DNA from: Xestospongia muta
Taxonomy: Eukaryota > Porifera > Demospongiae > Haplosclerida > Petrosiidae
Assembly (NCBI GenBank): GCA_963693285.1
Contig: OY848925.1
Span: 7,046,932-7,110,931 of the forward strand
Reading direction: 5' to 3'
Length of the DNA stretch: 64,000 bases
Below the pieces are notes generated by a model. It had not been told where the DNA came from. It worked only from the letters and a program-made list of their open reading frames with translations, and did not search any database. The translations under genes were made by a program, and so were the position numbers. How positions within the stretch are numbered: the stretch's first letter is position 1; each line of letters opens with the position of its first letter. This document shows, one piece after another, positions 3,877 to 52,839 of this stretch.

Positions 3877-5362
3877 ATGGCTGGACCAAATCCTAGAGGT
3901 ATAACCTCTCGTCAATACAGTCATCAAAGTAAATTAAAAACTATTTAATACAAATATTATCTAAATATATTACAGGAACTACCCAACAGTTTATACACGA
4001 AGCACAATTTGTAGCTGAACAAACAGTTAATCTTCATTCACAATTCAGCCCAACTCCTCCTCCACTCATACACTATCCACAAAGCTATGGACATCCTGTC
4101 TATCCTTCTCCAGTTCATTATGACTTCAGTCAAACTCCTAATCTACCAATCATACCACGAGTTAGATATCCTCATGACTCACAGGCTCGTTATAGTTCTA
4201 ATCATGTTACTTCTCCTTTGTTTAATGATGGTTCTGGTCCCAAACGCACATCTGCTTGTTCAGGTCCCAGTCCTGTTCCTATTATTGGTCCATCTAATCC
4301 CAGTGGTTTGACTCCACCCACTCATGAACTACCACATTATCAACCAAGAGAACAATTATTAAGAAGACAACTACCAAGAAGATCTATTCCTATTATGTCA
4401 TCTGTATATGAACCTATACCACATGTGTCATCTCTTCAAACTAAAGGTAATGTTTAGTAATCTATCTATAACATCATTGGGTTCTTATAGTACAACCATT
4501 AGGTCAAATACGAAGGGTAACAGATACAGTGGTTGGAAAAAATAACTATTCAATGGATCCTCTCTGTCCCTCTAATATTGATTTTCAACGACGTGGTATT
4601 GATGAAGGAGCTAAAATATTTCATAAAGTAATAAAATATGCTTCAGAACAAGGTCTTGACTTAAACTTTGAAGATCCAAAGTTACGAGACAAAGATAACA
4701 GAGGACTTCACAAAGATCCTTCAAGAGTTCTCGGAAAAGACTCACTTGATTTTCGCTGGCAAATGAAACATCTTTGTTATAATCGTACTGTCTATTGTAA
4801 GTTTGTATTTGGCAATATAATCAGTGAAGCTGACCTCCTTGACATAACTAAAAGGCTTGGTAATTTGATTGGTTCTATCGCCCATCAACAAAACCTTGCT
4901 GATCATTATAAAGAGGCGGAGCCAGAAGGAGGACCTAAAAAATGTGGAACAGTTAGCAGTATTGAGGAGTTCTTTACAATAATCACTGGCTTTGCAGACA
5001 AAGTGACAAAATGTCTTCAATCAGTTATCCCAGTAAGTTAGTTATAGTATAACTGTATGTAGTTAATACTCTTTGATTTTGTATAGGGATTAGAAACGCA
5101 CTGCAAGAATCTTCACAGCATTTATGACTCCTTTCATGAATATTGTCAATATCGTCGCATACATCATCTTAATCTCACTGCTACTGATAAAATGGACAAA
5201 GAAGAGAAGAGAGAAAAAGCAAGACAAGTGTTACAAGTTTTACAAAAAAATTTGAGTTCTACACATGGAGAGGAGGAGGATGCATTACTTGATCTAATTA
5301 CTGTACGTTTTGCGGCACAAATGAACCTATCTATCACTGATGTACCATCATTACATCACTAA
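3877..5362 (+). CDS. Family A unknown protein, copy 1
   Basis: Four exons: 3877-3928, 3976-4446, 4491-5032 and 5087-5362; all joins keep frame and the total is 447 codons including stop. Residues 1-17 come from the first exon. About 18-175 are a low-complexity Pro/Ser/Gln/His/Tyr-rich segment. The C-terminal 270 residues are a helical, charged domain with words such as DFQRRGIDEGAKIFHK, DFRWQMKHLCYNRTVYCK and LGNLIGSIAHQQNLADHYKE. No signal peptide or membrane span. I do not recognise the family. It is a close tandem paralogue of 6262-7738, with the second half nearly identical and the Pro-rich part changing faster. The disordered head plus folded tail could suit an adaptor, but that is a guess. 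Confidence 0.75.
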
Positions 5363-6261: not shown

Positions 6262-7738
6262 ATGGCTGAACCAATTCCTAGGGGTGTAAACTCTCGTCGA
6301 TACAGTTGTCAAAGTAAATTAAGAACTATTTAATGCAATTATTATCTAAATATATTACAGGAACAACCCAACAGTTTATACACGAAGCACAATTTGTAGC
6401 TGAACAAACTATTAGTCATCGTTCACAATTCAGCCTAACTCCTCCACTCATACACTATCCACAAAGCTATGGACATCCTGTCTATCATTCTCCAGTTCAT
6501 TATGAGTTCAGTCAAACTCCTAATCAACCACTCATAACACGAATTGGATATCCTCATGACTCACAGGCTCGTTATAGTCCAAGTCCTGTTACTCCTCGTT
6601 TTTTTAATGATGGTTCTGGTCCAAAACGCATATCTGCTTGTTCAGGTCCCAGTCCTGTTCTTATTATTGGTCCATCTAGTGGTTTGACTCCACTTACTCG
6701 TGACCTACCACATCATCAACCAAGAGAACAATTATCAAGAAGACAACAATTACCAAGACCTTTTCCTATTATGCCATCTGTACATGAACCTATACCACAT
6801 GTGTCATCTCTTCAAACTAAAGGTAATGTTTAGTAATCTATCTATAACATCATTGGGTTCTTATAGTACAACCATTAGGTCAAATACGAAGGGTAACAGA
6901 TACAGTGGTTGGAAAAAATAACTATTTAATGGATCCTCTCTGTCCCTCTAATATTGATTTTCAACGACGTGGTATTGATGAAGGAGCTAAAATATTTCAC
7001 AAACTAATCAAATATGCTTCAGAACAAGGTTTTGACTTAAACTTTGAAGATCCAAAGTTACGAGACAAAGATAACAGAGGACTTCACAAAGATCCTTCAA
7101 GAGTTCTCGGAAAAGACTCACTTGATTTTCGCTGGCAAATGAAACATCTTTGTTATAATCGAACTGTCTATTGTAAGTCTGTATTTGGCAATAAGATCAG
7201 TGAAGCTGACCTCCTTGACATAACTAAAAGGCTTGGTAATTTGATTGGTTCTATCGCCCATCAACAAAACCTTGCTGATCATTATAAAGAGGCGGAGCCA
7301 GAAGGAGGACCTAAAAAATGTGGAACAGTTAGCAGTATTGAGGAGTTCTTTAGAACAATCACTGGCTTTGCAAATGATGTGACAAAATGTCTTCAAGCAG
7401 TTATCCCAGTAAGTTAGTTATCGTACAACTATACATTGTTAATACTCTTTGATTTTGTATAGGGATTAGAAACACATTGCAAGAATCTTCACAGCATTTA
7501 TGACTCCTTTCATGAATATTGTCAATATCGTCGCATACATCATCTTAATCTCACTGCTACCGATCAAATGGACAAAGAAGAGAAGAGAGAAAAAGCAAGA
7601 CAAGTGTTACAAGTTTTACAAAAAGAATTGAGTTCTATACGTGGAGAGGAGGAGGATGCATTACTTGATCTAATTACTGTACGTTTTGCGGCACAAATGA
7701 ACCTATCTATCACTGATGTACCATCATTATATCAATAA
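6262..7738 (+). CDS. Family A unknown protein, copy 2
   Basis: Four exons with the same structure and phases as copy 1: start 6262, acceptors near 6360, 6866 and 7462, TAA stop at 7736-7738. It begins MAEPIPRGVNSRRYS. The Pro/Ser/Tyr-rich segment is slightly shorter than in copy 1 and has several substitutions, whereas the C-terminal domain is almost identical. Even introns and the 3' flank are alike, so the duplication is recent or the copies are kept similar by gene conversion. Function unknown. It lies tail to tail with the truncated acetyl-CoA synthetase. Confidence 0.75.
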
Positions 7739-31047: not shown

Positions 31048-31128
31048 ATTTTCATTAATTTTAATAATACATTGTTGTATTTTTAATAAGTGGGTGTTGT
31101 TATAGACACACATGCCCTAATAATAACA

Positions 31129-32375
31129 ATGGCTGAAACAGGGATGAAAAGAAAAAACGAAGAGATAGAATGTCAAAGTAAAAAGCGAGCACTAGCGAAA
31201 AATGATAAACTTTGTTGTTTGAGAAGTTGTTCTACTCTAATCGAGGAAGATAGAGTAGAAATAGTTGGTAATACTGTAGGTTCAGATGATTATATCTTAG
31301 GCTGGGACTCCAAAGGAGGTGCTGTATTACACACCGAGTGTTGGAAAGAAGTGTTACGTAATGTTAGAAGATCTAAAGGTGTTACAATAAAGATCTCATC
31401 AGTTGAAAAAGCACTGATTAAAGAAGCAGCCAAAACTGCAGAGTTCCATGATTCACAAATTATTATTCAAAGCAAAGCTAAAAAAATAGCTGATCTCATT
31501 GTTAATTCCAAATATGGTATTGCTTTTACTGGAGCTGGGATATCAACGTCTGCTGGTATTGGTAAGGATATGTATCTTATCATATAACAATATGTTGTTG
31601 TTTGTGTGTAGGTGATTATCGTGGTAAACGTGGAAAATGGACTGAAAAAGATCGACAGGCGATAAATGAAGACACACCCACTAGCACTAATGATGATGGA
31701 GTATCTTATGAAGAGTTAAGACCAACCTATACTCATGAGGCATTAGCTAAATTAGTGGAAATGGGGTTAATAAAACATGTTATAAGTCAAAATTGCGATG
31801 GTCTACATGGTTTATCTGGTATCCCAAAAGACTGTCTCTCGGAACTTCATGGCAATGTGTGTTTAGAAACATGTGAGGATTGTGGTGAGGAATATGAGCG
31901 TCCATTTTATGTTCTTGATGATACCAGTAGTCAATACTATGAAGATATTAATGAGAGTGGACAAAGTTCTCTAGTTAAACCTTCGTATGCAGTTCAATGT
32001 ATGCAGTGTAGTCTATCACATCGTACTGGCCGATCGTGTGACAGCTGTGGAGGTTATCTCAAGGATAGTATCATTAATTTTGGTGATGATCTTCGAGAAG
32101 ATGTTATTACAACTGCAGAAAGAGTTGCTAAAGACTCAGATCTTTGCATAAGTTTAGGAACTACAATGACAGTCACTCCAGCTTGTGACCTAGTCCTTAT
32201 GGGTCAAAAACCGTTACATTTGGTAATTGTGAATAGGCAAAAGACACAGTTTGATTATTTGTGTATAACTAAAGACGATAAAAAGATGGACTGTGGTGTA
32301 AGGGTGTTTGGTGACTGTGATAGTGTAATGAGGGAAGTCATGGTGTATTTGATGAAGGAAAAAGATAAAAATTGA
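31129..32375 (+). CDS. SIRT7: SIRT7-type sirtuin with extra N-terminal Cys/His region
   Basis: Two exons: 31129-31561 and 31612-32375. NAD+-dependent protein deacylase fold: GAGISTSAGI then GDYRGKRGKW (NAD site), SQNCDGLHGLSGIPK (catalytic His in QNCDGLH, the SIRT7 form of the usual QNVDGLH), LHGNVCLETCEDC and CDSCGG (two Zn Cys pairs), DSIINFGDDL, and CISLGTTMTV. Between CEDC and CDSC there is an extra CMQC. Residues 1-105 are not typical of SIRT7: a basic start (KRKNEE, KSKKRA) and then C-C-L-R-S-C with a later HTECW, a possible zinc-binding module. SIRT7 acts in the nucleus and nucleolus on histone H3 and rDNA transcription; that role here is inferred. Tandem with KIF6, 81 bp downstream. 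Confidence 0.88.
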
Positions 32376-41326: not shown

Positions 41327-44300
41327 ATGATGCCTTTCAAGACAGCGTTATTATTAACGTCAGTAGCTCTATTCATCTGCAGTATATCAGCATCTCCATT
41401 AGGTATGGAATCTAGTGATCATTTCTGTGCAGCAATGCAACAGATGAGAGAAATAGAGAGAGAGAGAGAGAGCAATTATTGTTATGTTATTATCAAACAC
41501 TTTGTTTGTATTATTATATCGTTTATTATAAATTAATAAAGTGCATTAATATTACTATTGTTAAAACTAGTGTAGAAAGAATCCTTCTAAAATTTGATAG
41601 TGTGGTTTTGCACTTGTGTCATGATTTAAATTCAAAAATTAGTTAATTTACTTTATTTGTGCTCATTTTTTATTTCTGCAGAGTTTTGCACAAACAGTCA
41701 GTATATTTTAGCTGGAGAGCATCTGAACTGGTCCATTAATGTCACTGAACTAATGTGTACAATTAATGGCAGACAGCTAAGTAAGTTTAATCAAGCAGTA
41801 CACATTTAAATTAGTATTTAGAGGATGTTGATAAAAGTCATTCAAAAGTGTCATTATGTATGCTCTTCCTCATATAGATGATGGAAGCGTGTTATTTTAT
41901 ACACCTGGTTCATATCAATATAATTGTCGTAATATGTCGGGAAATTTATCAGTTGTTGGTATACAACACAAGCTAGCATTCTGTTCAAACTGCACTCCAA
42001 ATTATCTGGTCATTTTTGCTGGTCAAGCAGTATCTTGGACAGGACCACACTGGAAGTGTTCACTTCAATTGGTTAATAACAGTTGCCATGGCAATGTCTT
42101 GAGAGACTTCAGTTCGCAAACTCTTGGTAAGTGTTATAGAAAGCCAATTTGACACAATTTCTGAGTGTAGTATGATTGCATTAACCACATCCTATTATTG
42201 TAAATATTTTGTAGGATTGCAACAAGTACATCATTTTCAAGAGCCAGGCACTTATCAGTTTTTATGTCGTGATAATTGTGAACCTTTGGCAACAGTCACT
42301 GTAGTAAATGTCAATGATACTGAACTAATAGAGTTCTGTTCTCAACCACAGCCTTTGATAGATGATGTCAAGTACAAAGAGTTAATTTATAGTCATGGTG
42401 CAATAATGGCTGTGACCTTTGGTATTTTATTTCCACTGGGAGCATTTCTAGCAAATATCAAGAAGCCAATAGCACACATGATACTTCAACCATTAGGAAT
42501 AGTGCTAGCTGTTATCGGGTTTGTATTAGCTGCTGTCTATAAAGGACTAAATGCCAGTAGTCACTTTAATCAGCTACATAGTATTATTGGACTATTATTA
42601 CTAGCAATAGTCATCATTGTCATACCAGGACTAAAGCTATCTCTATTAGCTCCTATTAAAGAAAAGTGGCAAAGACTAGTTATTATTTGGCATAAAAGAT
42701 TAGGAATTTCTGCTGTGTTTTTTGGTTTCTCTAATATTTTCCTGGTAAGTTTATATAAATGTGTTTGTTGGTGTTTTCATATCCTTTATTAGGGTTTGTT
42801 GGTCCTGTCTGATACACCAGTCTATATTAAAGTTATATATGGTGTATGGGTCTTTGTTTGTATTGTATTCTTTGTTATCTCTGGATCTGTCACCAAACAG
42901 GATGTCTATGATGATGATGAAGCACTGTCAGTGATGGTGACATGTTGTCGTTATCGAGCTGATAAAGTGACATTAAATCGTCAAGATCCTGTACGTTTAT
43001 CTAAACTCTCAAAAGATGTTCTAAGTGAAGGGAAGTACATTCAGGCAAGAAAGAAATCAGTGGACATGTTAGAAATGGCTGTAGAACCAGTAAAAACTTT
43101 TCCTCAACGTAAGGTGTCTAATGTTCATTTTGGTCCTGTTGATATAGCAGCAAATTTGACACCAAATATTGTTACCCCTCAATCTTCAAATCAATTTGGA
43201 TTCAATAATCGATTATCATCAGAAGATCTGAGTGATGACAGTGAAAGTGACCAAGAGCAGTCAACTGATGAAGTAGATGCTGAAATAAATGACAAAAAAA
43301 ATGTCCGTGACTCACAATTCAGTCTTAATAGTGTTCCCTCTGATGGTGGATCACTACGAATTACACGTCATTCTGATCGAGCTCACACTAAAGTTACTGA
43401 TCTATTTTCAAGAACTAACTCTATATCTCAAAATCCATCTCCTTTAATGACATCTCAACACATAAAACTTGATGACAACAATGATGACGACAATGAAAAA
43501 CACAAGAAGGAAGGTTCATCATCTAGTGAGGATGTGACCAAGTGTCCATTTCACAGATCAGGTAATTCAGACTCTGGCCTGCCATTACAACAGAGACGAA
43601 TGAGGAAAAATGCATTTGCTTCATCAGAAAATCCACCACCAATGACTTTACCAGGACAACAAAAAATTCAACGACAAATTTCAAGAAATTCTAGTTTTCG
43701 TCGCCAGTAAGTGAACAAATTGTATTATATTTATAATATTATATTTTACAGGCAACAAAAAAAGTTAATTGATAATACACTCCAATCAGTTATGGAGATA
43801 TCTGATGATGCTATTATTTGTGCTAATGCTCAAGGAGAAATAGTATTTTGGAGTGCTGGAGCTATGAAAATGTTTGGATATACTCCTGGTGAAGCAATAG
43901 GTAGCTCCTTACAAATGATCATGCCAGAACGCTACAAGGAGAAACATCAAAATGGAGTCAATGGACGAACTGAACGAGCATTAGATTATATTAGGTAAGT
44001 TTAAAGTCAACTCATTACATCAAATTAATGTTTATTTTAGAAAACATCATACTGCTCCGGAAGAACAAAAACACGCTCGACTCTATGCTGTGAGTAATAT
44101 ATTAGACAAGGATATGGTTTCAATAGTACTATAATTTATGATTATGGTTTTGAGTAGTAGTAGTTGGATCTGGTCCAAAGTAATTATGTCTCTCTCTATT
44201 ATTGCAGGTGCATGGAGTCTCAAAAACAGGAAAAGAGTTTGGAGTTGAAGCAGTAGTTACTAGTTTTGTCATTGAAGAAGACATATATTATACTGGCATT

Positions 44301-46906
44301 ATCAGTGAAGTTAAGCCCTTGACACGTCAACAATCATCATGTAGTTTGAGTAGTGAAACAGAAATTCGTGAGAAACATCAGAAGGTAAGTGTAATTTACT
44401 AAATTACATAATTTATTGGTTATTATAGGCAATGGCCATTGGTGCTCAAATGAAAATGGTTCATAAACTTCGGAATGCTGACTACATGACCAAAGTACTT
44501 TATTCCTTATAATAGTCAGTATTTTATCTTTATTTTACAGCGAGAATTGACTCGTATTTTAGAGAATAGTCTCCAAGCAGCTGAATTTGAAGTAAGTTTA
44601 TATTGATAATTATTGCTATTAATTGTTATTAATTTAATAATAACCTTTCTATTTCAGGTTCCTCCAGAAGATATCACTGTTATGGTTGACACTATATCTA
44701 AAGCTGCTGATAAAGATGAAACAGGAGTTATAAAATTTGTAGATTTAATTGATTTACTGGCTAAACATCAACTTTATATCAGTGACTCTGGTCTGATTGC
44801 CAAATATGGTAAAGCAAAGGCATCTGAGGGTAATTTAAGACCACGAGAGCGATGTTGCAATAAAGCTTTTGCATTTTTGTTCTCTCATATCGTCACCTTG
44901 AGTTGGGTCCTGGCCTACATCAGTCTTAACATAATTCTATGTATAATTGGAGTTTTGACTGAAAAAAGAAAAGGTTGGAGTAAAGTTTCATACGGTACTG
45001 GTCCAGTATTAAGTATGAATTGTGTTTTAATCCTATTACCTATGATGTATAGTCTGATCCATATCTTCAGAGGAAGTTCCTTTCTAATGAAGGTAATATA
45101 ATATCATTAATACAACATTGACTTATTATCATTATAGATTCTTCCATTGAAGCATTCTTTTCTATTTCATATCATTATTACAATGGGTATTATCTTCTGG
45201 AGTACAGTACACATAGCCACTCATTTGTGTTCATTTGATAATATCGATGAAAATGGAACATCACATGATAACTTTGAAGAAAATATCAAGACTCATCTTA
45301 TGCCATTAATCACTGGCATTAGTGCTATCTTTATAATAATCATATTGATAGTGTCATCTATTAAGCAATTACGATCGTTATGTCAATTTATTGGTTTCTA
45401 CAGTCTACACTGGATAGGCATAGCTCTATTTTATATTCTCCTGGTTCTTCATGGCAAAAACTATTATAATCCTTCTTTTTGGAAATGGTTACTACCAGTT
45501 CTCTTTGTCTACCTGCTGGAGAGGCTATATCATTATTGTGTGGTTACCAAATACTCTGTTGTTTTACAAAGAGCCGCACCTTATGATGAAATGTCAAGAA
45601 CCACAAAAATAGAAGTGAAAAAACCAAAACATTACAAGTTTATACCAGGACAATATCTCCTCATCAATATTCCTCAAATAGGTAAATTTTTATATTTGTT
45701 ATGCATTGAAGTATCAATAATTCTTGTAGGATATTTTAACTGGCAGCCATGTAAAATAGCTTCAACAAACAAAGAAAAAGTAAGTCAATCATTAACAGAA
45801 AGTATTTTTAAAAGTTACTTGTTCCAAATTAGGCACTAACATTATATGTACCTCATATTGGCAATGCCTGGATTGAAAAGGTCTTTAAAACTTTCATGAG
45901 TAATCCAATAAAACCAACAGCTGATGACCAAACAATTCCAGTCCTTACTGTCAATATAACTAATCCGTAGGTTATCTGGTAACACATTCAATGATGTATA
46001 TGTACATTAGATATGGAGTAGGAGCAAATGTTGTCTTTGATTATAAAGTAGCTGTTCTTGTGTGTGGAGGAGATGGACCACTTACATGTCGTAGTATTAT
46101 ACAGACATTTTTGGAATATAGGAAAGGCTCAAGTTGTCATTGTGGGTAAGTTTCTCCTTAATACATTTTAATTGATTATAATTATACTTTTATTTTCTCA
46201 GATGTCATCCACAATTAACTAAGTTATATTTTGTATGGGTCACACCAAGTGGCAATGATAATGAGGTACAAATAATTAAATTTTATTAAATTATAGGAGT
46301 CATTCTCTTCTTTAATATTAGTGGTTTACAGACTATCTGAGTGAATTAACCGAAGATGAAAACTTGAAGAAATACCTTGATATTCGCATTTTCTTGACTA
46401 ATATTAATAGTCCTCCTGATGAACTAGCATCAGCTTTACTCCACTTAGCTTTAAAAACAGGAGGTCCAGCATTGTCCGTTCGACGTCCTTCTCAACCACA
46501 ATTAAGCAAACTTTATGCGTATACATCTTATGGTATTCCTGATTTTGAAAATCTGCTTGATTGTAAGTTTTTATTATCTACCACAATCAATGTTATATAT
46601 CTATATAGTTGTATCAATGCAACAAGGGACGGCCTCTGATAAGGGAATGGAATGTGGGGTCTTCACTGCCGGTGATCTGCCACAAACTGTTAAAAAAGAC
46701 CTACTTCATTATTGTGCCATATGCTCCAAAAAGAAAGGACCACCTATTACAAACACTCCAGCAGACTCACCATACAAGTAAGAACTAAGACTTCCTTATA
46801 ATTTGGTTCAATTTGATATAGGCAACCTGTGGACTCCTCATCTGAACTGGAACAAGTACCAAGAGAATGGCATATTACTTTTACACAGCAAACACTAATT
46901 CTTTAG
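41327..46906 (+). CDS. Cytochrome b561-PAS-EF-hand-NOX5-like fusion protein
   Basis: About 19 exons, all joined in frame, coding near 1,430 aa. Residues 1-24 are a signal peptide (MMPFKTALLLTSVALFICSI). About 25-190 are a Cys-rich, glycosylated ectodomain. About 195-335 are a cytochrome b561 core with histidines in SHGAIMA, KPIAHMILQ, NQLHSIIG and IIWHKRLG, as in FRRS1-type b561. About 340-615 are an acidic, Ser-rich cytosolic linker. About 625-755 are a PAS domain (EISDDAIICANAQGEIVFWS; FGYTPGEAIGSSLQMIMPER). An EF-hand loop follows, DKDETGVIKFVD. From about 880 comes a NOX5-like module with haem His spaced 14 in FHIIITMGIIFWSTVH, then LHWIGIALFYILLVLHG and FWKWLLP. FAD/NADPH lobes show PGQYLLINIP, FNWQPCKIAS, VCGGDGPLT, EWFTDYLSEL and a tail WHITFTQQTL. 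Predicted role: transmembrane electron transfer with sensing. Confidence 0.85.
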
Positions 46907-49152: not shown

Positions 49153-52100
49153 CTAGAGACTGGGAGGGACAAAAGTGTCCAAGTTAAAAGGTGTATCATT
49201 ATTATCATCTGTGAACAAGGGATCATACAAATCTAATATACTGGAACTGTTTGAACTGTCAGAGTAACAGATATTAGAGTAACAATCTTCCCCTCCATAA
49301 GTTGGATAATAAGGTAGGCTTTGAACAGAACCAGTAGGAGAAGAAGCACTTTGACGAGCTAATTTTGGAGTAGTTGGTCGAGATGTAGGAGCACTTGTTG
49401 TCACATCAATTTGAGGTTCAAGAGATCCTCGGCCACTATGTGGGCGTGGCCTGACTATAGTTGGGCTGGGTGTGGCTACTAGCATTGATGTTCGATTTGA
49501 AATATCAACGGACTGTCGAGGTGATAAGGATGCTCCTGTAAAGGATTGTCGTGGAGATATTTGAGTATGATTTTCAGGAGATGATGAGAATCCACTTTTA
49601 ATGGAGCTAACAGTATCACTAAATAATGAATCCACTGATGTCGTGGGAACTGAAGTAGTGACTGCATTTGACAAAGGATCTAGATCAGCTAAAATTGATC
49701 TTGTTTGTGCAGGTATTGTCATAGAATTATCAAAATCAATTAAATTCTGTACATCAAAACTGCCTCCTGAGACATCAGATATTGAACTCTCTTTGCCTGA
49801 GTCTTGTGAGTGGGTGGAGTCAGTTGATAGTAATACTTTGGGACTCATTGGACTACTGTCCATAGAACCACGTTTTACAGAAGGATGATATCCAATAGGA
49901 AGTTGAAATGAATGAGGAAAAGATAAACGAGAAGAGGTTTCTATTAACATAACTAATACATATATGAGTAAAGGACACTATACTTACCAGTGGCTGGAGC
50001 TGCAGGAAGAAGATAAGGTACAGTACGAGGATCACTGGTTGTACGATCACGTACATGACCACTTAAATACGGAGACAACTGTTCAGCTTCAGTTTTATGA
50101 GTCTTTTCACGAAGAGATGTTCCTCTTTTTTCCATACGGTTGCCATAGCGACGTGGTAAAGGAGAAGTTTTACCAGGAGCATTACTAATTTCTAATGTGA
50201 CAGATATAATGAAGGGGTGTGGTCAATAAATAAATTACCTGTAGTTGTATCTGACGACTGACGTTTATGCCTTCCCAAATGAGGTAATGAACTTCGATGT
50301 TCTCCTGTTTTTAATGGTTTACCTAGAATACAATACCAGTTAAACCAGTTATCACAAATCAACTTTGTTACTTTCAAGGTCTCTTATTTTGGCTTGTAAT
50401 TCATGAACTATTTGTTCATGTTTAGCAAGTGAGTCACCACTCCCAGACTTTGAACGTCGTGGCTCACGACTTGATGATAACCACTCAATGAGTTTACGTG
50501 GAGAGAAGCGCTTTATTCTTGGGGGTCGTTTCTATAAATAACAAGAATATCAGTGAAATTCTAAAAATATAACTACAATATGTTGCTATTAATAGCAACA
50601 GTTATACTTTTCCAAATATGGTAATAAATTGAATTATCAACTTTCATTATGATACCTCTCTTTCTGTAGCCAGCTCTTTTAAATGTTCCTGAACTTTGTC
50701 CATCATTTGCACTAAATTTTGCTCTTTTTCCTCTAACTCCTTTTTCATTTCTTCAACTCGCATCTCCTGAATTTTCATACGATTCATTAAATCTTTTTCT
50801 TTAATTTCCAACTCCTGTTATTAACAACTAATTAATAACATCATTTATAATCAGGACACTTACTGTTTCAATTTTCTTGAGCTCTTTAAATCGTTTTTGT
50901 ATTTCAACTTTCCATGTACTTTGTAGTGATTTAAATTCTTCATCTGACGTATGACTAAATTCTGATTGCTGTATTTGTGATAGAGTTATGAGAACTTCAT
51001 GAAATGATGGTCTCTCTGAATGTTCTCTTTTCCAACAACCTACAGTATATAAACTAATACAATAAACAAAGGTGGAATTAACTCACAACTCATTAATTGT
51101 TCAAGTGACTTGGGGCAATGTTCCGGTATGGGTAATGTCAAAGTACCATGTCCAACTCCATATGCAACAACAAACATATTTAGACCACTATATGGCTTTT
51201 CACCAGTTAGAATCTCCCATAATACAACACCAAAACTAAATTATCCAATAATAATAATAAAGGAAATTATATTTAATTTAAGGGTCTTACCTCCAAACAT
51301 CACTCTTTTTAGAGAATTCTGAGGAGCGTATAACCTCAGGTGCCATCCACGGATATGTACCTGCTCCACTTAAATGAGTTGTATTTTCGATTTCTTTGGC
51401 TAAACCAAAGTCTGTAATTTTAATAATGTTTGCTCCCAAATTGTCAGGGTTGACCTCATACTGTAAGAGAACTAAAAGACAGGATCGTGAAAGCAAAATT
51501 CTTACACAACAAGGAAATACCATATATGGTATTCTCAATCCATACAACTAACATAATAATTATACAAACACATTACTTACTATTACTAGATTTTAAATCA
51601 CGATGTATTAACGAAGGACTAGCCTGATGATGTAAGTATTCCATTCCTTCTGACACTTGTCTACTCCAGTCAAGTATGACATCAATAGATAGTGAAATGT
51701 TACGTTCATGTAATACTTTAGACAATGGACCACCACGTGCATACTCCATTACTAAACAGACGTCTTTAACAAGACACACTCCAACTAAAGCACATATATT
51801 TTCATGAGCTAAATGAGCAAACTTTTCTGCTTCAGATAATACTTCAGTAATCACTTTAACAGTATCAAAACTAGTTTGCCGAGCTACTTTAACAGCGACA
51901 TCTTCTCCTTTATATGAGGCACGGTAGACTTTACCAAATCCTCCCATACCAACTACTTCACCTAACTGGACTTCATCTGAAGGAATTTCTAATGGATATC
52001 GATGGAGGTCAACCTCTTCTTGTGTAAAATCACCAGAAACAGAGGCTACCACTTTTACACTAGTAGCTGGAAATATGCCAATTTGGCCATGACTATTTCT

Positions 52101-52478
52101 GCCAGTCCACCATCCAATATTACGAGACACGACTGTATCTTTAGATATAATTTCAATTCTTTCTCCAACAGTTAGTGTTAACTCATCACAATATAAACCC
52201 TTGAAATCACCAATAACAATACCAACACTTCGAAGTGATCGTCTCTTAGAAACATTAACTGACTTGACTGACTCTGTACGAACAAATCTTTTTGATGGCG
52301 CTACAACTTGAGGTGAACGAGAGAGCGCCATTGCCGATAAGTTAACAGCTACTGTATCTACTGGAGTCGTAGCTACGGTTGCATTACCACTTGAACTTGA
52401 CGTCTTTTGTCCATCTTGAGTAGAGGGAGGTAGATCTGTAATAGTAGCATTAGATAAGTACTCCTCTTCTACAGACAT
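49153..52478 (-). CDS. Mixed-lineage MAP kinase kinase kinase (MLK)
   Basis: Start MSVEEEYLSNATITDLPP at 52476-52478; stop at 49153-49155. An SH3 domain at about residues 85-145 (GDFKGLYCDELTLTVGERIE; GWWTGRNSHGQIGIFPATSV) precedes a kinase domain of the MLK type: GMGGFGKVYRA (P-loop), VAVKVA (Lys), HRDLKSSNILL (catalytic), KITDFGLAKE (DFG), GTYPWMAPEVI. After it come a coiled coil/leucine zipper (about 50630-50960) and a basic stretch (RPPRIKRFSPRKLIEWL). Last is a long Ser/Thr/Pro-rich tail with SP sites. This order (SH3, kinase, zipper) defines MLK1-4 (MAP3K9/10/11/21), which activate JNK and p38. I do not see a clear CRIB motif. Confidence 0.92.
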
Positions 52479-52839
52479 ATTGAGAGAATTAATCACAATC
52501 TTTATTGAGAATTGTTAAATTTCCTTTCTTGTATACCTGGAATGAATGAAGGCGTGTTCATCATATGTTAACCGTATTGTTCTAATTAATCGTAGTAGTA
52601 TTATTACTAGAGATAGTGTGTGTGTCAGCAGGTCAGGTCAGGTCTGTTCAGGAAGAAAGGGAAACTATTTCTTCTTTTTTTCTGGATCAACAGAGTTATT
52701 GACATTCGACTGTAAGTAAATTGTATCATATATAATAACGTATATATTAACTGGGTAAGGGGCATTAAATAGATATTTTGTATAATTATGTTAATAATCT
52801 GATATCTTATTTTTGTCATCAGTTACCTGTTACTGAACA
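52479..52839. promoter_or_regulatory. Region between MLK and pecanex start codons
   Basis: 361 bp between divergent genes. GGTCAGGTCAGGTC at about 52630 is a short direct repeat. CGACTGTAAGTAAATT near 52708 looks like a splice donor, so a non-coding first exon of pecanex probably ends there, with the acceptor TTTGTCATCAG near 52821. No TATA box seen. Confidence 0.45.

Follow-up and report, generated by a model that had tools for sequence, protein, structure and literature searches.

The window analysed here, a stretch of 64,000 nucleotides from the demosponge Xestospongia muta (contig OY848925.1 of assembly GCA_963693285.1, positions 7,046,932 to 7,110,931), carries on its forward strand, at 41327..46906, a gene of the demosponge DspNOX family, in which cytochrome b561-type helices, a linker, a PAS domain and an NADPH oxidase (NOX)-type core are joined in one chain. 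The gene product retains both sets of haem histidines and the oxygen-side residues of the NOX core, and the signatures for reduced nicotinamide adenine dinucleotide phosphate (NADPH) and flavin adenine dinucleotide (FAD) are lost in it and in each relative examined. In a hand-built model, 19 exons encode 1436 amino acids in one frame; all 18 introns are of the GT-AG type, the exon phases join, and intron lengths range from 44 to 118 bp, except for intron 1 with 279 bp. An initial annotation of this DNA had placed the start (ATG at 41327) and the end (stop codon ending at 46906) correctly and the matching exon phases that it described are upheld, whereas its introns of "under about 110 bp" were inexact. 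From the N-terminus onwards the protein consists of a signal peptide, two cupredoxin-like domains, a b561 core, a linker, a PAS domain, a weak EF-hand, a NOX-type haem core and a dehydrogenase, located in the window as follows (P0001 to P0005 are relatives described below):

41327..41402, + strand: exon 1, signal peptide (residues 1-25), with a hydrophobic stretch at residues 7-25 and a like start in P0004
41682..42363, + strand: exons 2-4 (start), tandem pair of cupredoxin-like domains (residues 26-190) lacking copper ligands, from profile comparison with the PDB
42364..42918, + strand: cytochrome b561 core (residues 191-360), five hydrophobic helices and His 202, 229, 263 and 301, from PF03188, PF10348, conservation and hydropathy
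42919..43767, + strand: linker (residues 361-628), acidic and Ser-rich, with CPFH at residue 569
43768..44318, + strand: PAS domain (residues 629-757), FixL-like, from Pfam and PDB profile matches
43945..43947, + strand: His688, which in the alignment matches the His that ligates haem in FixL (His200 in B. japonicum)
44709..44744, + strand: EF-hand-like loop DKDETGVIKFVD (residues 836-847), from the alignment, with EF-hand_8 below its cut-off
44841..45542, + strand: NOX-type transmembrane haem core (residues 880-1098), His 974, 988, 1054 and 1068, His992 and Thr1022-Gly1023
45543..45949, + strand: FAD lobe (residues 1099-1200), PF08022
45744..45755, + strand: QPCK replacing HPF(S/T), from the alignment
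45956..46906, + strand: NADPH-type lobe and C-terminus (residues 1203-1436), PF08030 and conservation
46063..46089, + strand: CGGDGPLTC replacing GxGxGxxPF, from the alignment
46535..46537, + strand: Ile1344 replacing the Arg of GRP (NOX2 R513), from the alignment
46668..46676, + strand: AGD replacing CG(S/P), from the alignment

The domain search of the spliced product that had been proposed with the initial annotation placed Cytochrom_B561 (residues 224-320; 38.3 bits), PAS (residues 633-752), FAD_binding_8 (38.2 bits) and NAD_binding_6 (35.8 bits) above their Pfam cut-offs, together with DUF2427 (32.1 bits), which overlaps the Cytochrom_B561 helices. Ferric_reduct scored 27.8 bits (cut-off 28) and EF-hand_8 14.6 bits (cut-off 28). 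At E ≤ 0.1 neither Ferric_reduct nor an EF-hand family was matched by P0001 to P0004, a weak test for the EF-hand, as the examined piece of L001, a NOX gene of the same genome, is also without one. Hydropathy analysis placed the stretch at residues 7-25, five b561 helices and five of the six helices expected for NOX above the threshold; Pfam, haem histidines and hydropathy thus support the b561 core, PAS domain and NOX haem core of the initial annotation. With the N-terminus outside and five b561 helices, the linker, the PAS domain and the dehydrogenase would be cytosolic.

When residues 620-1240 were used as a query, 14 proteins were obtained, and five of them (P0001 to P0005) covered 98-100% of the query with 37-46% identity; their full-length identity to the window protein is 40-44%. 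The remaining nine are bacterial-type PAS proteins, judged by name or by Pfam domains. P0001 (1528 amino acids; longest contig 4965 nt) and P0002 (1388 amino acids; contig 5048 nt) each contain b561, PAS and NOX within one unbroken frame, and because these contigs barely exceed the coding sequence, while the gene has 18 introns here, their sequences suggest that they are derived from cDNA, that is, from spliced mRNA. The EukProt models P0004 (Em0019g755a) and P0005 (Em0019g766a), whose prefix Em presumably stands for Ephydatia muelleri, have the same domain order with pieces missing: P0004 lacks part of b561, P0005 part of NOX transmembrane helices (TM) 1-3, and both lack a PAS stretch, gaps that are perhaps gene-model faults. 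P0003 begins downstream of the b561 core. P0001 to P0003 are probably sponge sequences as well, and P0016 to P0018 are orthologues of exon 5 from close relatives (86-98% identity across 303-304 residues). Further searches for relatives gave four matches, with only the 8000 best candidates scored, and five matches, all already known; the search for the same architecture suggested in the initial annotation was therefore positive for P0001 to P0005 and for no other match of these searches. The six aligned rows, window and P0001 to P0005, represent about four lineages, with P0003 to P0005 close to each other (94% identity in the NADPH-type lobe).

The in-phase exons and the relatives with the same domain order in one frame support the single gene of the initial annotation. 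An artefactual fusion was rejected, and a model that merges two or three genes is scarcely credible, given phases that join over 18 introns, the single frames of P0001 and P0002, the same order in the two gene models P0004 and P0005, and an architecture published for four sponges (Hewitt and Degnan, 2022; PMC9524095). Three genome searches, whose counts are lower bounds, revealed no second DspNOX copy; the only DspNOX-like places were the window's own exons on the contig that carries it (C9). The other matches were three NOX genes (L001 to L003) and the weak L004, by eye another flavin reductase, and L008. L001 (G000:C4:10280492-10283953) is DUOX-like by eye, and its catalytic part is an intronless frame of at least 671 amino acids (738 in another search), compared to 19 exons for the window gene.

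The DspNOX dehydrogenase aligns clearly with those of solved NOX5 and NOX2 and with a bacterial ferric-reductase/NOX5 dehydrogenase. In the alignment of the six rows, made also together with L001, four signature elements, HPF(S/T), GxGxGxxPF, CG(S/P) and GRP, are changed in all six. HPF(S/T) is intact in none of them, with QPCK, EPCY, QPCP or HRCY in its place; GxGxGxxPF, likewise intact in none, reads C[GA]G[DNE][GS]P..[CAS], its Pro and Phe being gone; CG(S/P) is replaced by [AIVL]G[DE] throughout; and GRP has become G[IV]P in 6/6 rows, the position of the Arg being that of NOX2 R513 (chain numbering of the aligned structure), associated with the 2'-phosphate of NADPH. The C-terminal Phe is also absent from every row. 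Work on SpNOX assigns roles to HPF(S/T), xGxGx, CG(S/P), the 2'-phosphate Arg and the tail Phe, and describes HPF(S/T) and CG(S/P) as strictly conserved and in contact with FAD or NADPH (PMC11564096).

The NOX genes of the same genome served as controls: L001 keeps HPFT, GxGxGxxPF, CGP, GRP and FENF, L002 keeps GxGxGxxPF, CGP and GRP (the HPF exon lies outside the part covered), and L003, which is NOX5-like, keeps HPFT, GxGxGxxPF and GRP (the CGP exon lies outside the part covered). Similarly, NAD_binding_6 scored 105.6 bits for L001 versus 23.9-39 bits for P0001 to P0004, and at E ≤ 0.01 L001 matched 11 NCBIfam families, each named as an electron-transfer flavoprotein and each scoring under its cut-off, whereas no electron-transfer flavoprotein family was matched at this threshold by P0001 or P0003. 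The Arg of FIWVTR, which is Pro in all six rows, was excluded from the losses because the NOX2-like L002 has Pro there too. The "complete NOX-like module" of the initial annotation therefore has to be revised, as its nucleotide-site motifs are missing where the controls retain theirs; loss of motif residues does not in itself prove loss of binding.

Identities between the window protein and P0001, P0002 and P0003 were determined for eight segments, the boundaries of which were set by us. They amounted to 64, 58 and 63% for the NADPH-type lobe, 65, 66 and 66% for PAS, 49, 54 and 49% for the EF region, 41, 48 and 40% for the NOX helices, 38, 36 and 44% for the FAD lobe and, for P0001 and P0002, 40 and 36% for b561. 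PAS and the former NADPH lobe are thus the best conserved of the eight segments, and the invariant blocks of the alignment include CxCGC, LYFVWV.PSGND.EWFTDYLS and PDELASALL. Motif loss through decay was rejected, since the NADPH-type lobe is highly conserved, at 58-64% identity, whereas the NOX helices reach 40-48% and b561 36-40%.

With a profile of the PAS domain, 14 PDB matches were obtained at E ≤ 0.001, by name seven FixL, six DosP/YddU/haem-PAS and one histidine kinase; in four DosP matches no single stretch passes on its own, and FixL was the best match (E 5.5e-14). The NCBIfam FixL model was matched by P0001 and P0003, far under its whole-protein cut-off. His688 aligns with the proximal haem His of FixL (His194/His200; PMC10765370) and is invariant in all four rows that hold the exon; among the bacterial PAS matches listed this His is not universal. 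A haem-PAS is thus possibly what this domain is, and a good lead. In the linker, a CPFH motif at 43543-43554 (residues 569-572) is present in the window, P0001, P0002 and P0016 to P0018 and absent from P0003 to P0005; we take it to resemble a Cys-Pro haem-regulatory motif.

The EF-hand-like loop of the window protein has Asp at positions 1, 3 and 12 and Thr at position 5, and in the five relatives position 3 is Ser, Glu or Gly and position 12 Asn or Gly. The initial annotation had pointed to the Ca2+ control of NOX5; a role of the EF-hand as a Ca2+ switch finds no support as a family trait: EF-hand_8 stays below its Pfam cut-off, position 12 is non-acidic in 5/5 relatives, the loop is not conserved and P0001 to P0004 match no EF-hand family at E ≤ 0.1.

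In the NOX part, all four haem histidines are found in five of the six rows, with an H-x13-H spacing in TM3. His-101, His-119, Thr-178 and Gly-179 of NOX2 are reported to distinguish NOX enzymes that generate reactive oxygen species from metal reductases (PMC3591440), and of the corresponding residues both histidines are present in five of six rows (P0005 is without TM3) and Thr-Gly in all six.

The cupredoxin-like pair between signal peptide and b561 had been overlooked initially. A profile of residues 26-190, built from three sequences, gave 14 PDB matches at E ≤ 10, all of them cupredoxin-fold copper proteins by name and spanning both halves, with a best E of 0.035 and none significant alone. 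The blue-copper ligand set of cupredoxins is His-Cys-His-Met. In our alignments invariant Cys residues occupy the places of the upstream His and of the Cys ligand, the downstream His/Met pattern is absent in the three rows of the profile and Cys-x-x-His is confined to domain 1 of P0004. Judging from these residues, the ectodomain probably carries a disulphide where copper proteins bind the metal, and a copper relay through it was rejected as the copper ligands are missing. In the b561 core the four His are paired, with one pair at each end of the helices; all four are present in the window, P0001 and P0005. P0002 has three, so that b561 haem content may vary within the family; the P0004 model lacks the fourth and P0003 lacks the region. 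A structure model of P0015 (b561 part; pLDDT 64.9) consists of strands followed by four helices, and a Foldseek search with it (112 matches at E ≤ 10, none at E ≤ 0.001) added nothing beyond the helix content.

The architecture itself is already known, and the statement in the initial annotation that no described animal protein has this order does not hold: Hewitt and Degnan (2022; PMC9524095) describe it as DspNOX in the four demosponges A. queenslandica, X. bergquistia, T. wilhelma and E. muelleri. They label DspNOX a novel calcium-regulated, superoxide-producing NOX, propose functions related to Fe2+ and superoxide, and use the HHHH haem motif as a filter for activity; EF-hands initially missed by hmmscan were assigned via Gene3D and by hand. 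They also mention E. muelleri DspNOX-like sequences without HHHH, one of which could be P0005, and the published E. muelleri DspNOX may be identical with P0004 or P0005. The abstract, sections 6, 13 and 16 and further passages of PMC9524095 contain no statement on cofactor motifs beyond HHHH, and besides this paper none was found that names DspNOX or combines cytochrome b561, NADPH oxidase and PAS domain. What is new in the present work is the loss of the dehydrogenase cofactor signatures across the DspNOX sequences compared.

The relay from outside to inside and back that the initial annotation suggested stays speculative, but this loss makes an unusual electron source likelier than that annotation supposed. 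Tentatively, and at somewhat less than an even chance, we propose that electrons would reach the NOX haems by a route different from the usual supply by NADPH and that the PAS domain would gate the flow. A disulphide-bonded, probably copper-free cupredoxin pair would lie outside the cell, followed by the two-haem b561 core and, after the cytosolic linker, by the FixL-like PAS domain and a NOX5-like two-haem core backed by an FNR-type domain whose lobe would have lost the standard transfer of hydride from NADPH. The NOX haems would be fed by another donor, which could be ascorbate, as with the b561 module, or a reductase acting as partner; the possibly haem-bound PAS domain and the conserved former NADPH lobe would gate the electron flow, and electrons would leave the cell, oxygen being their most probable acceptor and ferric or cupric ions the other candidates. 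In its most far-reaching form, which we consider doubtful, DspNOX would be an animal NOX derivative that gave up NADPH, a single chain with up to five haems (two in b561, two in NOX and perhaps one in PAS), the oxygen side kept, the former NADPH lobe turned into a conserved sensor or docking surface, electrons drawn from a partner or from ascorbate, and the outflow set by a PAS domain that senses a gas or the redox state. We know of no described animal NOX derivative of that kind, although no dedicated search for one was made.

Several observations weigh against the proposed reading as a whole. The loose xGxGx of the SpNOX work is kept in five of the six rows, and the first motif position is Cys also in the aligned bacterial ferric-reductase/NOX5 dehydrogenase, so that a nucleotide could still bind; the His of HPF is kept in P0003 to P0005, FAD_binding_8 and NAD_binding_6 are nonetheless above cut-off, and the missing C-terminal Phe is weak evidence, since an aromatic residue persists a few places upstream of the end in all six rows. 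SpNOX has no Arg at the place of R513, yet functions with NADH and NADPH (PMC11564096). In the TM5 haem pair (45408-45452) the spacing is H-x13-H in 6/6 rows, one residue longer than the H-x12-H of NOX2 (209, 222), L001 and L003, so that the haem core too departs slightly from the standard. The distal Arg220 of FixL corresponds to Tyr719 when counted along the HMMER alignment, and P0002 has Tyr for the second haem His in b561 helix 2. A structure model made with P0003 and four relatives was not usable and was discarded (mean pLDDT 36.5, pTM 0.25).

That DspNOX is a working, if unusual, NADPH oxidase as published, in which Ca2+ and PAS control superoxide formation from NADPH and the motif changes are tolerated, is in our estimate rather unlikely. 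The published reading (PMC9524095), the two dehydrogenase families above cut-off, the mostly kept xGxGx and the haem histidines speak for it, and it gains weight from the retained residues that mark production of reactive oxygen species. Against it stand four cofactor elements altered in 6/6 rows, whereas in human NOX2 the single exchange Pro415His is enough to disrupt the binding of NADPH while FAD and assembly stay normal (PMC9674757), as well as the non-acidic position 12 of the EF-hand in 5/5 relatives and, as a weak test, the four relatives without an EF-hand family at E ≤ 0.1. The same oxygen-side residues take weight from a sensor or scaffold without net electron transport, in which PAS and the NOX lobe would act as a signalling unit that senses redox state or a gas, the haem cores having a structural role or sensing potential. 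The strong conservation of PAS and the former NADPH lobe and the lost donor signature would suit such a unit, but haem histidines of both cores and oxygen-side residues kept in nearly all rows are best explained by electron transport, and we regard it as quite unlikely. A dehydrogenase in which FAD binding persists and NADH or a different nucleotide is used would agree with the loss of the 2'-phosphate Arg, the largely kept xGxGx and the use of NADH by SpNOX (PMC11564096); however, the losses in CG(S/P), Pro-Phe and HPF(S/T) hit the nicotinamide and flavin sites generally, beyond the 2'-phosphate, and we regard this explanation as similarly unlikely.

In summary, a sponge protein filed as a calcium-regulated NADPH oxidase seems to be without a standard NADPH site and without a conserved calcium site. 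If so, tallies of enzymes producing reactive oxygen species in early animals need re-examination, and DspNOX would be a natural experiment on rewiring a NOX core to another donor under a haem-PAS-like sensor.

Elsewhere in the window, two pairs of open reading frames at 3933-5041 and 6318-7417 (+ strand; 174/189 and 171/189 amino acids) look by eye like near copies of each other, in a tandem duplication. Also by eye, frames at 31090-32375 (+ strand) resemble a sirtuin-like deacetylase, and a frame at 51573-52514 (- strand) with SH3 and kinase parts is mixed-lineage-kinase-like.

Compared with known systems, the window protein shares with the published DspNOX the b561/DUF2427 helices, a disordered region, the PAS domain and a NOX5-like C-terminus, and the b561 model beats DUF2427, as in A. 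queenslandica and X. bergquistia; in the passages of that paper covered, E. muelleri is the one species given two cupredoxin domains, and these lie at the C-terminus, whereas here they are N-terminal (window, P0001 and P0004) (PMC9524095). NOX5 is the best solved match (6sz5, E 6.7e-35), TM3 likewise shows H-x13-H and the DspNOX CxCGC sits approximately at the place of the CXXC zinc insert of NOX5 (PMC11088703). In contrast, NOX5 has four EF-hands (PMC11088703) and intact cofactor motifs, while in DspNOX there is a single weak EF-like loop, every motif is altered, an exact CXXC is missing and the TM5 spacing is longer by one residue. The CxCGC position and the best PDB score favour a NOX5-lineage origin of the NOX part, whereas the published tree places red algal NOXD next to DspNOX, its authors urging caution on long branches (PMC9524095). 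With FixL the PAS domain shares the aligned proximal His and differs in the Tyr at Arg220, about a dozen extra residues and the lack of a kinase. The b561 cytochromes of the FRRS1/CYBDOM type, which has a DOMON ectodomain, and Dcytb resemble the N-terminal half in that a b561 core with four His comes after an ectodomain, but here a cupredoxin-like pair replaces DOMON and the core is fused to PAS and NOX. STEAP1, a conduit of the ferric-reductase type that has no NADPH site of its own and is fed by another reductase, differs in assembly and offers an analogy solely for an externally fed conduit.

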